42,814 nt of DNA, taken from the NCBI GenBank assembly GCA_902771635.1, contig CACXXW010000018.1, forward strand, positions 1-42,814, read 5' to 3'. The translations under genes and the position numbers were made by a program. The stretch is from an uncultured Bacteroidia bacterium. GTDB lineage: Bacteria > Bacteroidota > Bacteroidia > Bacteroidales > F082. Within the stretch, counting starts at the first letter, position 1, and each line of letters starts with the position of its first letter. The notes below the pieces were generated by a model, which was not told the DNA's origin, did no database searches, and worked only from the letters and a program-made list of their open reading frames with translations. This document shows, piece after piece, positions 2,378 through 35,292 of this stretch.

Positions 2378-2431
2378 AAAAGAGGCTCCTTCGACGCTTC
2401 GACAAGCTCAGCGACCGAAGGAGCCTCTTTT
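2378..2431. terminator. Bidirectional hairpin terminator
   Basis: A perfect 16-bp stem (2378-2393 with 2416-2431) is flanked by A-runs on the left and T-runs on the right. It sits between the convergent fucosidase and the CpcT-like gene and would act for both strands. Its 22-nt loop holds one arm of an interspersed repeat. Confidence 0.85.
2397..2416 (+). repeat. Single arm of interspersed repeat (CTTCGACAGGCTCAGGGACC family)
   Basis: CTTCGACAAGCTCAGCGACC differs at two positions from the right arm of the dyad inside the S9 peptidase (4207-4226). It lies almost wholly in the loop of the terminator, sharing its last base with the stem. Confidence 0.6.
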
Positions 2432-3431: not shown

Positions 3432-5563
3432 TATGATTCGTTATTTGATGATATCATTCCCAGTTCATCCAGCATGAAGGCATATTCCAAAACGACTTCC
3501 TTGAACCCTTCGAAACGCCCCGAAGCACCACCATGACCGTAATCCATCTCGGTCTTCAAGTACAAAGGATTCTTGTCCGTTTTCAAGGCGCGGAGTTTGG
3601 CCGCCCACTTGGCGGGTTCCCAATACTGCACCTGGCTGTCGTGCAATCCTGTGGTGATGAGCATGGCGGGATAATCCTTGGCTTCTACATTATCGTAAGG
3701 TGAATAGGAAAGCATGTAGTCGTAATACTTTTTCTCATTGGGATTGCCCCATTCATCATATTCACCCGTGGTGAGCGGAATACTCTCATCGAGCATGGTG
3801 GTAACAACATCTACAAAAGGCACTTGAGCGATGACACCTTTCCATAAGTCAGGACGTATGTTGGTCACGGCACCTACCAAAAGTCCACCCGCACTGCCAC
3901 CCATGGCGAACATTTTTTGCGGCGAGGTGTAACCTTTATTAATAAGGTATTCAGCGCAGGCAATGAAATCGAGGAAAGTGTTCTTCTTGTTCAGCATCTT
4001 GCCGTCATCGTACCACTGCCGCCCCATCTCCTCGCCACCACGGATGTGGGCAATGGCCCAAATGAAACCGCGATTCAAGAGGCTAAGGCGTGCCACGGAG
4101 AAATAAGCATCCGTACTAGAGCCGTAGGAACCATAACCGTAAAGGACAAGTGGACGGTCAAGGGTTCCTGAGCCAGTCGAAGAGCCCGACACAATTACAG
4201 ACGGCGCTTCGACAGGCTCAGGGACCGCAGCATCCACATTTTTCTTGTAAACAATCGAAATCGGCACCAGGACACCGTCATGTGATGGCGCCATCAAACG
4301 CTCGGTGACATAATCTTCTGGATTATAGCCACCCACAATTTCCTGTCGCTTGAGCAAAGTCTTTGTGCACTTCTCCATATCATACTCGTAGACCGAAGAA
4401 GGTGTGGTCATGGAATTGTAGGCATAGCGCAAGGTGACGGCTTCAAAGTCGGGATTGGCACCCACACCAGCGGTGTAGGCAGGCTCACCGAAATCGAGAT
4501 AATAGTCTGTGCTGCCGTCCCAAGTCCGTATCCTGATGTTGACCAACCCCTTCTCGCGCTCCTCAATAACAAAATACTTACTGAAGATGGTGAAACCCTC
4601 TATCATCACCTTCTCACGATGGGCGATGACCTCCGTCCAATGCGCCATTTCCGTTTGGCCGATTGGCGTCCGCATAATCTTGTAGTTCTTCGCACCATCA
4701 GCATTGGTCTGGATATAGAAATGCTCACCGTAATGGTCGATGCCGTACAGCATATCGGGTTGGCGTTCCTGGAACACACGAAATTCGTTCATAGGCTTGT
4801 CGCTCTCAAGGATGCGACATTCCGATGACAGTGTTGAATCCGAATTGATAATCAGATATTTTCTGGATTTTGTCTTGCTAATATAGCAGACGAAGGTCTC
4901 ATCTGACTCTTCATAAACCAACACATCCTCAGCAGCAGCCGTTCCCAAACGATGACGCATGATTTTGCAAGGCCTCAAGGTCTCATCCTTAACACCATAG
5001 AAAAGCGTCGCGTTGTCGCTGGCCCAGACCACATTGCCTGAGGTATTAGGAATCGGCTCATCAACCAACTCACCCGTCTCCAAGTTTTTGACATACACGG
5101 TATAGAGACGGCGGCTCACTGTGTCGACCGAATAGGCTAACAACTTATCATCTTCACTAAGGCTGAGCTCCCCTATTTCGAAAAAAGTATGGCCTTTGGC
5201 CAGCTGGTTGCCGTCCAACAAGATTTCCTCAGGTGCCTCGAGGCTGTGATGCTTGCGACAGAAGATAGGATATTCCTTGCCTTCCTCATACCGCGTATAA
5301 TGATAATACTCGCGGATTTTGATCGGCACAGAATTGTCATCCTGCTTGATACGTCCAGTTATCTCCTTGAAGAGTTGTTCCTGAAGAGGTTCCGTATGCT
5401 TCAGACAAGCTTCTGCATATTGGTTTTCGGCCTCAAGATAGGCCAAAACCTCAGGGTTTTCGCGCTCGTTGAGCCAATAGTAGTTATCAATACGGGTATG
5501 GCCGTGCACCGTCATCTCATGGGGACGGATGGCGGCCTTGGGGGGTGTAAGAGTGTTTTTCAT
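3431..5563 (-). CDS. S9 family prolyl oligopeptidase / oligopeptidase B-like serine peptidase
   Basis: The protein should cleave short peptides with an alpha/beta-hydrolase catalytic domain capped by a beta-propeller. The N-terminal region (HGHTRIDNYYWLNERENPEV) and the C-terminal half match oligopeptidase B. The triad is visible: Ser557 in GGSAGG, Asp642 in LHDSQV and His677 in YGHGGASG. RGGEEMGRQWYDDGK is the conserved stretch before the nucleophile elbow. There is no signal peptide, so it is cytosolic unless exported otherwise. The length, 710 residues, is normal but includes an unusual insertion: residues 447-467 (VPEPVEAP to GSGT), just before the LVLYGYGSYG strand, are encoded by a palindromic repeat element at 4163-4226. 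It follows the TonB receptor by 14 nt, suggesting coupled peptide uptake and breakdown, which is an inference. Confidence 0.92.
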   Translation of the reverse strand: MKNTLTPPKAAIRPHEMTVHGHTRIDNYYWLNERENPEVLAYLEAENQYAEACLKHTEPLQEQLFKEITGRIKQDDNSVPIKIREYYHYTRYEEGKEYPIFCRKHHSLEAPEEILLDGNQLAKGHTFFEIGELSLSEDDKLLAYSVDTVSRRLYTVYVKNLETGELVDEPIPNTSGNVVWASDNATLFYGVKDETLRPCKIMRHRLGTAAAEDVLVYEESDETFVCYISKTKSRKYLIINSDSTLSSECRILESDKPMNEFRVFQERQPDMLYGIDHYGEHFYIQTNADGAKNYKIMRTPIGQTEMAHWTEVIAHREKVMIEGFTIFSKYFVIEEREKGLVNIRIRTWDGSTDYYLDFGEPAYTAGVGANPDFEAVTLRYAYNSMTTPSSVYEYDMEKCTKTLLKRQEIVGGYNPEDYVTERLMAPSHDGVLVPISIVYKKNVDAAVPEPVEAPSVIVSGSSTGSGTLDRPLVLYGYGSYGSSTDAYFSVARLSLLNRGFIWAIAHIRGGEEMGRQWYDDGKMLNKKNTFLDFIACAEYLINKGYTSPQKMFAMGGSAGGLLVGAVTNIRPDLWKGVIAQVPFVDVVTTMLDESIPLTTGEYDEWGNPNEKKYYDYMLSYSPYDNVEAKDYPAMLITTGLHDSQVQYWEPAKWAAKLRALKTDKNPLYLKTEMDYGHGGASGRFEGFKEVVLEYAFMLDELGMISSNNES
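4163..4226. repeat. Palindromic repeat element inserted in frame in the S9 peptidase
   Basis: Left arm 4163-4182 and right arm 4207-4226 are inverted copies matching at 18 of 20 positions, with a 24-nt spacer. The arms belong to the same family as those at 2397-2416 and 35225-35292. On the minus strand the element is open in the peptidase frame and adds 21 residues. Confidence 0.8.
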
Positions 5564-19885: not shown

Positions 19886-19906
19886 ATCGTTATCGTCAGT
19901 TAGCTA

Positions 19907-19950
19907 TTAGCCATTAGCTGTTAGCCTCAGGCTACCATGCTAATGGCTAA
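19907..19950. repeat. Palindromic repeat between secA and pyrH
   Basis: TTAGCCATTAGC (19907-19918) and GCTAATGGCTAA (19939-19950) are perfect inverted copies around a 20-nt loop that itself holds TAGCC/GGCTA. It has no T-run, so it is more a REP-like element than a terminator. The loop contains GCTACCA, shared with the hairpin at 28528-28577. Confidence 0.75.
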
Positions 19951-19988
19951 CAGCCAAATTATAAAAACCATACGCTAAATTCTTGAAT

Positions 19989-25273: not shown

Positions 25274-27365
25274 GGCGCTTGCCCTGATGATGGCCATAGG
25301 CCTCATGGCCAGCTCTGCCCACGCTCAAGAAATATTGACTCCATTTGGCAATACAGAGAAAGCGCCCATCAGAAAAGGAGTCGCCGAAGCGCGTTTCCTG
25401 CCTTTCTTCGATGACTTCAGTCAGTCTATCACCTATCCCGACTCAACGAAGTGGACCGACAACAACGTACTGATGAATGCCGGCTTCCCCGTATGTCCCC
25501 CCAACCGCAAAGGTGCCACCTTCGACGTCCTCGATGCCGATGGCAAGGTGTACAGCTATGCCATAAGCAATGCCTTCGTGGCCGAATACCTCACCTCTGT
25601 GCGTATCCGTCTCGACTCTATCATGGAACCCGAACCACGCGCTCTCACCCCTGCCGATTCGGTGTACCTAAGCTTCTACTACCAGCCACAAGGCAACGGC
25701 AACCCGCCCGAGGCGCAAGACTCACTTGTGCTGCAATTTGGAACGACCACCGAACGACAGGAATTCCTGTTCCTTGACTACCAAAACTATGAGATCGCCG
25801 ACATCTTAGCAGAAATGCAAGTCGACACGCTGTTCCCTGGTGACACTGTTTGGGCTTCGACTGGTTGCCAACCTGGATTGTACACCCTTATCACCGACAC
25901 ACTGACCTCAATGGATCAAGACCCCATCGCCGTGCCTTGCGATTCAGTCTTCATCACCGTGGCCGACACCACTTGGTACCACATCTGGAGCGTTCCTGGG
26001 CAGACCTTGGAAGACTTCATGGATGAGAACGACGGACAGTACTTCAAACAAGTGATGATACCCATCACCGACTTGAAATTCTTCCGCGAAGACTTCTATT
26101 TCCGCTTCTACAACTACGCCAGCATTGTCAGCAGTTCGTTGCCCAGCAACCGCAGCAACGAGGATAACTGGAGCATTGATTTCGTTTACCTCAACATCAA
26201 CCGCACGATCGATGACACCGACTATCCCATGCTGACTTTCTCAGGCCAACAGCCTTCGTTCTTCAACCGCTACCAATCGATTCCCTACCGTCAATACCGC
26301 ATCAATCCTTATACCCTTACACGAGAGTACTTGGATATTGACGTTGCCAACCTTGACGGCATCGACCATGAGGCCAACTATTATTATAACGTACAGCAAA
26401 TCGGTGGAGGACAACACTATACGCGTACTGTGAGACCAACCACCATACCCCCATATAAAACCAATGGCTATCTGCAATGCTCCGAATACGAGTCGCCCGC
26501 CTGCCCAAATGTAGGCGAGCTCTTTGCCATCAGCTTGGATTATGATTCGGTATCCTATCAAATCAGCCATTACCTTTACGACTCCACTGCCAATCCGCCC
26601 CTGGTCGATTCGATGGTGTACCGCATAGGCATGTACAACTACTACGCCTACGATGACGGCATTCCTGAGTTGGGCTTTGGCGTGCGTCCTGCCGGTGGTC
26701 GCTTTGCCGTGCGCTTCGACGTGGCCGACTTCGACACCATCCAAGGCGTGCAGCTGCTGTTTAACCACACCCTCAACGATGCCAATAACAAATATTTCGA
26801 CATCGTGGTTTGGAAAGATGCCAACGGCAAGCCCGGTGAAGAGCTATACCGCCTTGAAAACCAGCGTCCGCAATGGCAGGACCAAATTTACCGTTTCAGC
26901 TATTACAAATTCGAAAAGACCGTCGCCCTTGCAGGGGCCTTCTATATCGGCATCGAGCAACGCAGCGACGACCTCATCAACATTGGTTTCGACACTTCCA
27001 TCGACAATATCGATTACAACTTCATCAACACCAACGGCTCGTGGCAGCAAAGCAGCAAGCATGGTTCGCTGATGATACGTCCTGTGGTAGGTGCATCTTA
27101 TTTCATTGGCGTGGAAGAGAATGGCCCTTCGTCAGGCTCAGGAACCTTTGTAGTCTATCCGAACCCCGTCAGCAATATATTGCATATCGAAGGCGACATC
27201 GATGGTGGACAACTGAGCATCTACGACCTTATGGGAAGAATGGTGCATCAAAGCGAATATCATACCGAAATTCCTGTCAGTCAACTGAATGACGGATTGT
27301 ATTTCCTCAGCATCACCACGAACGATGGCCAAGTCATCAACCAAAAATTCATCATCCGCAAATGA
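25239..27365 (+). CDS. Large secreted protein with T9SS type A sorting domain
   Basis: The 708-residue protein has a signal peptide ending MASSAHAQ and a C-terminal sorting domain (VYPNPVSNILHIEGD, LSIYDLMGRMVHQSE, LNDGLYFLSI, QKFIIRK). The body is beta-rich, with YLSFYYQPQGNGNPPEAQDS and FRFYNYASIVSS suggesting carbohydrate-binding-like sandwich modules; no catalytic motif is recognised. Three in-frame starts exist, at 25239, 25251 and 25263. The first overlaps the PASTA gene by 35 nt and gives the most basic n-region. Its stop overlaps the rluD start (ATGA), so PASTA, this gene and rluD form one unit. This order recurs in Bacteroidota as far as I recall; the function is unknown. Confidence 0.85.
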   Translation: MKRKMNLKMSFKALALMMAIGLMASSAHAQEILTPFGNTEKAPIRKGVAEARFLPFFDDFSQSITYPDSTKWTDNNVLMNAGFPVCPPNRKGATFDVLDADGKVYSYAISNAFVAEYLTSVRIRLDSIMEPEPRALTPADSVYLSFYYQPQGNGNPPEAQDSLVLQFGTTTERQEFLFLDYQNYEIADILAEMQVDTLFPGDTVWASTGCQPGLYTLITDTLTSMDQDPIAVPCDSVFITVADTTWYHIWSVPGQTLEDFMDENDGQYFKQVMIPITDLKFFREDFYFRFYNYASIVSSSLPSNRSNEDNWSIDFVYLNINRTIDDTDYPMLTFSGQQPSFFNRYQSIPYRQYRINPYTLTREYLDIDVANLDGIDHEANYYYNVQQIGGGQHYTRTVRPTTIPPYKTNGYLQCSEYESPACPNVGELFAISLDYDSVSYQISHYLYDSTANPPLVDSMVYRIGMYNYYAYDDGIPELGFGVRPAGGRFAVRFDVADFDTIQGVQLLFNHTLNDANNKYFDIVVWKDANGKPGEELYRLENQRPQWQDQIYRFSYYKFEKTVALAGAFYIGIEQRSDDLINIGFDTSIDNIDYNFINTNGSWQQSSKHGSLMIRPVVGASYFIGVEENGPSSGSGTFVVYPNPVSNILHIEGDIDGGQLSIYDLMGRMVHQSEYHTEIPVSQLNDGLYFLSITTNDGQVINQKFIIRK

Positions 27366-28507: not shown

Positions 28508-28527
28508 ACAAATAGGCTTTCAGCTGT

Positions 28528-28577
28528 CAGCCATCAGCTATCAGCTTTAGTGCTACCAAGCTGATAGCTGACGGCTG
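28528..28577. repeat. Palindromic repeat downstream of rluD
   Basis: Left arm 28528-28547 and right arm 28558-28577 match as inverted copies at 19 of 20 positions around the loop TAGTGCTACC. No T-run follows. The loop core GCTACCA is the same as in the secA-pyrH hairpin, and the arms use the same AGC-rich phrasing. Confidence 0.8.
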
Positions 28578-28608
28578 ATTGCTTATAGCTACTATAGCCA
28601 ATAAAGCT

Positions 28609-35176: not shown

Positions 35177-35224
35177 CTTTTTTAGTTGTCAGTTGTTCAG
35201 ATATTCAGTTGTTCAGTTAGGGAG

Positions 35225-35292
35225 GCCTTTCGACAGGCTCAAGGACCTTGGCTTTTACGAAGGGTTAAGATGCCTGAGTTTGTCGAAGGCCA
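35225..35292. repeat. Intergenic copy of the CTTCGACAGGCTCAGG dyad
   Basis: The left arm (from about 35225) and the right arm (to 35292) are inverted copies of the repeat seen in the S9 peptidase and at 2397. A run of TCAGTTGTTCAG direct repeats lies just before it (35190-35218). The 195-nt gap otherwise holds only the promoter candidate of the small lipoprotein. Confidence 0.65.

Follow-up and report, generated by a model that had tools for sequence, protein, structure and literature searches.

We found that a pair of inverted REP hairpin units lies in frame within the gene for an S9 peptidase in an uncultured Bacteroidales bacterium of family F082. This element is one member of a wider pattern: the same family of units is scattered through the genome, mostly between genes, and its copies within genes are concentrated at the linkers that precede type IX sorting domains. 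We think it very probable that the REP pair entered a loop of the peptidase in frame and was nearly neutral there. Its conservation as DNA most likely reflects copying, and RAYT transposases would be the likeliest mobilizers of the family. "The window" refers to the whole stretch of DNA that we analyzed, which is 42,814 nt of contig CACXXW010000018.1 (assembly GCA_902771635.1). Its features are listed in Table 1. Locus names such as L047 are our own handles for the genome contigs that we compared.

Table 1. REP units and associated features of the window
Feature	Position	Strand	Basis
Inverted pair of REP units, predicted to encode residues 447–467 of the peptidase	4163..4226	-	Dyad and reading frame; 63 nt longer than empty orthologues (compared segment)
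REP unit 1, predicted reading VPEPVEAP, residues 447–454	4203..4226	-	23/24 bases match the consensus unit
REP unit 2, opposite orientation, predicted reading GSSTGSGT, residues 460–467	4163..4186	-	21/24 bases match the consensus unit
S9 peptidase, oligopeptidase B-like, 710 aa	3431..5563	-	Pfam PF02897 and PF00326
Degenerate REP pair	35224..35288	not assigned	Two mismatches in either core (35228 and 35274)
REP-like unit outside genes, within the loop of a terminator-like hairpin	2393..2416	+	Hairpin by reading, not by scan
Single REP unit, predicted reading GPSSGSGT, linker before sorting domain	27123..27146	+	Core match, reading frame, and position of the sorting domain
Type IX C-terminal sorting domain	27153..27359	+	TIGR04183 / PF18962
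Cargo gene of this sorting domain, 708 aa	25239..27365	+	ORF

A REP pair in the peptidase gene

A preliminary description of the window, made from its sequence alone, had picked out a 64-nt dyad inside the peptidase gene, and the dyad is there as claimed: read directly, its arms are identical at 18 of their first 20 bases (or 21 of 24 for arms of 24 bases). The 80-nt stretch around it has a predicted fold, as single-stranded DNA, of -22.3 kcal/mol (z = -6.2). As none of 200 shuffles of this stretch folds as stably, we rejected a chance dyad. The two units are worn, with inner stems (CCCT/AGCG and TCCT/AGAG) that are not fully paired, but in the predicted fold they still pair with one another. 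The description had also claimed that the repeat adds residues 447–467 to the protein without breaking the frame, and this is correct: the ORF has no internal stop, and counting along the codons, the element takes in the last base of codon 446 and everything after it through codon 467, so it would encode these residues.

The peptidase has propeller and hydrolase domains, and when we searched by sequence and by fold, oligopeptidase B chains ranked at the top among solved structures. It is probably an S9A oligopeptidase B, with oligopeptidase B as its nearest kin. Ser557, Asp642, and His677, which we take to be the catalytic residues, are invariant across 45 aligned rows. So is Tyr477, which lies about 10 residues past the insert; it probably corresponds to Tyr473 in the prolyl oligopeptidase of the pig, which has an oxyanion role.

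In a structure model of the peptidase (mean pLDDT 85), the insert sits between the strands at residues 432–440 and 472–477, and residues 445–466 have pLDDT below 50. The preliminary description, which had suggested modeling the site, expected a loop between the propeller and the hydrolase. A loop is what the model shows, but not at the domain border: the Pfam propeller domain ends at residue 406, and since the insert comes after this end and between these two strands, the loop belongs to the hydrolase part. The REP pair would have entered at this loop, which is modeled as disordered.

To compare orthologues, we used the best 80 of the 471 genome-contig loci that encode a relative. An insert is found at the same place in 14 of these 80 loci, and the other 66 have a short loop (such as GLDKNGRN). 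Thirteen of the 14 inserts are recognizably derived from REP units; the remaining one, in L047, is decayed or doubtful, with 12 of 24 bases per arm. In this comparison, which the preliminary description had proposed, the examined orthologues that are free of the repeat also lack the residues, so the case that it had named as a refutation (the residues standing without repeat DNA) did not turn up; L047 is the sole exception to a clean split. Together with the window, there are 15 rows with inserts. Relative to a 105-nt segment in the empty rows L043–L046, L048, and L050, these are longer by 63, 57, 54, 48, 33, or 24 nt. The frame is identical on either side of the insert in all 15 rows. (The lengths are from one-frame tblastn alignments, where an open frame across the insert already makes them multiples of three.) Three rows (L037, L042, and L049) have a single REP unit only, and in L041 the second unit is in another frame (ALRQAQGP).

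We also built a tree from 29 of the 45 aligned rows (16 were left out), with the insert columns removed. All of the inserts are inside one clade (support 100/99), in 15 of its 19 rows. Because the four empty rows, L043–L046, are unplaced within the clade, the tree fits either one insertion followed by losses or repeated insertion. We propose that a BIME/REPIN-like pair of inverted REP hairpins entered the peptidase gene at least once within one genus clade. With the frame kept, the enzyme would have gained about 21 residues while the rest of the gene remained under purifying selection. That the gene outside of the insert is under purifying selection is shown by dN/dS relative to the window's gene, which was 0.03–0.08 in 14 of 15 comparisons and undefined in the 15th (several dS values were above 1 and saturated).

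The arms of the insert evolve differently from the rest of the gene. Across the 15 rows, their identity was 0.75 at codon positions 1 and 2 and 0.74 at position 3, versus 0.93 and 0.59 for the rest of the gene. Of 662 windows along the gene, 1 was as low as the arms at positions 1 and 2, and 14 were as high at position 3. Without L047, the identities of the arms were 0.79 and 0.80. In the seven rows with two intact arms, they were 0.92 and 0.85, and 2 of 661 gene windows reached that identity at position 3; this choice of rows favors conserved arms, and in all 15 rows the effect is weaker at position 3 but stronger at positions 1 and 2. The arms in the peptidase (16 codons, in a single gene) change without regard to codon position, as DNA and not as protein. 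Exchange among REP units, re-insertion, or selection on the DNA could explain this pattern, but selection on the peptide could not.

A sliding identity scan also revealed a mosaic in the peptidase gene, at positions 5114–5363 of the window (nt 201–450 of the gene), where the window is 75–78% identical to L032 and L072 (77–78% to L032) and these are 98–100% identical to each other. As this mosaicism among near relatives is well away from the insert, we do not claim the repeat as a breakpoint.

The REP family and its copies in genes

The repeat unit has the consensus GGT-stem-GAGCYNGTCGA-stem-CC and folds with six stem pairs, a bulged T, and an 11-nt loop. At about 24 nt, it is shorter than ERIC elements. 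Four consensus units, folded singly, had energies that were no better than those of shuffles, so support for the hairpin comes from covariation and not from energy. In 60 fetched regions plus the window, with the register taken from the folds of the consensus units, 105 of 128 units are paired at all four inner stem positions; the mean for shuffles was 39.5, with a maximum of 53, and slid controls gave 0–1. There are nine stem types, such as CCCT/AGGG, CGTT/AACG, GCCT/AGGC, and TGCT/AGCA.

After adding five more regions, we had 136 units, and 86 of these have a neighbor within 120 nt. Neighboring units are in opposite orientation in 39 of 43 pairs, often with a spacing of 37 or 46 nt. A GTAG tag is near only 3 of the 136 units and a CGTC tag is near 18, which does not fit the GTAG or CGTC superfamilies. 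The family does have a covarying hairpin, high copy number with most copies between genes, and opposite pairing, as REPs do. We class the units as REPs that form BIME/REPIN-like pairs and lack both of the described tags. An Rfam scan of the window gave only a tRNA at threshold, and we rejected a described Rfam family for the repeat.

The 15-base core of the unit occurs seven times in the window with up to three mismatches, while 1.17 occurrences are expected. Genome-wide, there are 52 exact cores (control: 0) and 158 with up to two mismatches (control: 7). The number of exact cores ranges from 0 to 104 among the 36 genomes of the same genus that we searched, and in a sample of the phylum, 51 of 296 genomes have at least one. 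Within this Bacteroidales genus of the gut and rumen, some members have the family in abundance.

Further inverted repeats were noticed in the window. Between genes, at 2376–2432, a terminator-like hairpin with arms AAAAGAGGCTCCTTCG and CGAAGGAGCCTCTTTT holds a REP-like unit in its loop. The inverted repeats at 28516–28589 and 19886–19971 have arms similar to CAGCTATCAGC and TTAGCCATTAGC and resemble interspersed repeats of different families.

The preliminary description had stated that the repeat family is interspersed and also occurs between genes, and had suggested a search of the genome for further in-frame copies. Both points are borne out by the 158 cores and by a survey of the first 100 listed of these, minus five, which covered 96 sites in 82 elements. 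Of the 82 elements, 46 are outside of coding ORFs, 20 are well inside coding ORFs, and 16 are at an edge or ambiguous. (We classified the elements by ORF and codon model and compared 16 proteins with Pfam, where two had no match.) Some of the edge or ambiguous elements are also genic; for instance, a Pfam domain spans the unit in L155. Judging from the reading frames, REP units encode peptides within ParE/GyrB-like, KdtA-like, and Rho-like genes, in the N-terminal part of a transketolase, and in a ketoacyl synthase fusion, as well as in the tails or N-termini of GyrA- and ValS-like genes. The ketoacyl synthase fusion (L185, 1425–3788, - strand) has a REP pair around residue 397, with another REP-like segment farther along, and the KdtA-like protein (L194, 2360–3691, + strand) has REP units at two surveyed places.

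The 27 units in the 20 well-placed elements use four frames: GPSTGSGT (16 units), PEPVEGP (5), SLSLSK (3), and ALRQAQG (3). The preference for the first frame is only a trend, and nine of its 16 units are from type IX genes. In the ParE-like gene, units are found in five of 22 orthologue loci and are missing from the other 17. Six of the unit-free loci (L250, L252–L255, and L265) are 93.7–95.9% identical over the aligned protein. Our genome has two tandem units in this gene, in two frames, and L251 has a single unit.

Linkers before type IX sorting domains

The genome has a large set of type IX sorting domains, with 143 matches to TIGR04183 in 3.0 Mb. Eleven of the 100 listed REP cores are located at -30 to +80 nt before the start of a sorting domain, versus 0.53 expected if placement were uniform, and the adjacent bins contain 0, 1, and 0 cores. 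Ten of the 11 are in the same orientation and one is opposite. The usual junction between cargo and sorting domain reads EE(N/D)-GPSTGSGT-xxVYPNP. A pattern derived from it has 77 hits, spread over 35 of 99 genomes of the genus (the reversed pattern, as a control, has none). We examined 30 of the 77 loci: in 28 the junction leads into a sorting domain, and two are cut short by N or by the end of a contig.

The window contains one such gene. Among 30 orthologue loci of its cargo gene, seven have a REP-like linker (degenerate in L280 and L286), L279 has a partial remnant, and 22 have none. The linker has a net gain of about 3 residues, so the REP unit seems to have replaced part of an old linker. 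Counting this cargo gene and the ParE-like gene, we found empty sites for two in-gene copies besides the peptidase's. The flanks at the empty sites of three genes are too diverged for reading any target-site duplication of the kind that marks a MITE.

We also considered that the REP-bearing linkers might arise mainly when a sorting-domain module, along with its REP linker, is duplicated onto a new cargo, instead of by repeated insertion. Among 465 pairs of REP-bearing proteins, 90 have dissimilar cargo and similar sorting domains, and none have similar cargo and dissimilar sorting domains. For 25 REP-free proteins from the best-scoring domains, a control whose make-up was not matched, the corresponding numbers were 3 and 0 of 300 pairs. 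However, several dissimilar types of sorting domain have the unit at the same place, one of them in the opposite orientation, and the presence of the unit is mixed among orthologues of one gene. Duplication as the main source is a serious possibility, somewhat short of likely. Since sorting-domain types vary among the carriers and one REP-bearing type is common to unrelated cargos, insertion and module duplication may both contribute.

We propose that in-gene copies survive where they would be read as short linkers in places that tolerate them, namely loops of enzymes, tails of proteins, and the joint between type IX cargo and sorting domain, which is the commonest of these in our survey. A stronger proposal, which we consider rather improbable, is that REP units are a reusable linker cassette for type IX proteins, with their DNA kept by exchange among copies and the linker set by mobile DNA. 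If so, the REP unit may be a recombination joint that lets sorting domains change cargos. We also noticed that in L343, L346, L351, and L354, a repetitive HHSAFRIHHSEFQI-like peptide follows YPNP inside the sorting domain; this may be another translated repeat.

Origin of the insert and relation to known repeats

Could the segment in the peptidase be ancestral protein that resembles a repeat by chance? Beyond the intact frame, all that we can cite for this is the insert of L047, which is of similar length and hardly REP-like, and could be either decayed or a different sequence. This explanation is hardly credible, given the short loop in 66 of the 80 loci (the best of 471), the matching flanks at the empty sites, and a match of both arms to a family whose exact core occurs 52 times in the genome and never in the control. 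Alternatively, selection might have kept the insert because its peptide is a useful loop for the enzyme. This would account for the in-frame insert in 15 of the clade's 19 rows, but it seems inconsistent with the low identity of the arms at codon positions 1 and 2 (0.75, versus 0.93 for the gene), with the three rows that have one unit only, and with the row whose second unit is in another frame. We consider it unlikely. Instead, we propose that the copy makes little or no difference to the protein. The amino acids that it encodes drift, arms have gone missing without a break in the frame, and the conservation of the arms has no codon pattern. The DNA-like conservation would most likely reflect copying among REP units, by gene conversion or re-insertion, and not a function of the peptide.

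The preliminary description had likened the element to Rickettsia palindromic elements (RPEs), and there is a likeness, in that palindromic repeats are translated in frame in unrelated genes, as reported for RPEs in parts of PMC10969869 and PMC3733652. In excerpts of PMC10969869, which also review in-frame fusions, RPEs are about 150 bp, and each has an ORF for a conserved peptide. But here the single units are about 24 nt long and the pairs about 64 nt, the 27 in-gene units use four frames, and the surveyed elements are more common outside of genes than inside. So a longer coding mobile element of the Rickettsia type, with a conserved peptide, is very unlikely, and we replace this part of the description with a REP hairpin pair, whose relatives use four frames among the 20 well-placed in-gene elements.

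What might have moved the REP pair? The genome has five matches to Y1_Tnp. None of them has REP units close by on either side, the shortest distance being about 1.4 kb; two of these genes are located at the end of a contig. Among relatives, the fetched flanks of 1 of 29 Y1_Tnp loci contain REP units, about 1.3 kb away; eight of the 29 loci are from REP-rich genomes, and the locus with units is one of these. We rejected tight linkage of RAYT and REP, as in a REPtron, where the transposase is flanked by repeats; the association is at the level of genomes only. Y1_Tnp is present in all 17 same-genus genomes with at least 8 exact cores, versus 10 of 19 genomes with fewer (Fisher p = 0.0012, with a threshold that was set after seeing the counts and a test that ignores kinship). 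We infer that mobilization of the REP units by RAYT is plausible, and a REP-associated tyrosine transposase that acts on single-stranded hairpins would be the likeliest mobilizer.

Sections of PMC3733652 describe REP units as hairpins of 20–40 nt that often occur as opposite pairs, are interspersed, mostly between genes, and are associated with RAYT transposases. These sections also report several species with REP units or dimers inside ORFs, including DNA-repair and rickettsial genes, and more than half of the in-ORF inserts are dimers or groups, which encode 20–30 residues. Our element resembles the REP / BIME / REPIN systems with RAYT described there in its hairpin units, its opposite pairs, and its interspersed copies, some of them in ORFs. 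Bacteroidetes are among the phyla with CGTC repeats, and CGTC units have stems of 8–9 bp and loops of 4–5 nt, according to the same sections; in contrast to the GTAG and CGTC REPs, our units have few tags and have six stem pairs, a bulged T, and an 11-nt loop. The recurrence at type IX sorting domains is a feature of our family that is not mentioned in the main-text sections of PMC3733652 on in-ORF units. As those sections equate RPE-4 and RPE-6 with CGTC REPs, the REP and RPE kinds appear to shade into each other. ERIC elements, although named as intergenic, also occur within genes, in Enterobacteriaceae and Vibrionaceae (excerpts of PMC10969869); they are alike in being small repeats that can be genic.

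Given the in-ORF REPs and the RPE fusions in these parts of PMC3733652 and PMC10969869, translated REPs are known as a kind. In the open-licence literature of PubMed Central, no paper turned up that contains the sequence of the unit or of its peptides, and we saw nothing relevant on REPs with type IX linkers or on intragenic REPs in Bacteroidales. Within the literature searched, the REP family, the hotspot at sorting domains, and the DNA-like conservation within a coding gene seem to be new.

Hairpin repeats are usually counted as extragenic, but here, if we have read the frames correctly, they would repeatedly give rise to new loops and linkers in proteins. Because filled and empty sites are found side by side in close relatives, such natural data make it possible to study how far proteins tolerate random inserts that keep the frame. 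And given the hotspot and a repeat that is conserved as DNA, and not as protein, although it is read in frame, the idea that mobile DNA can supply working linkers becomes directly testable.
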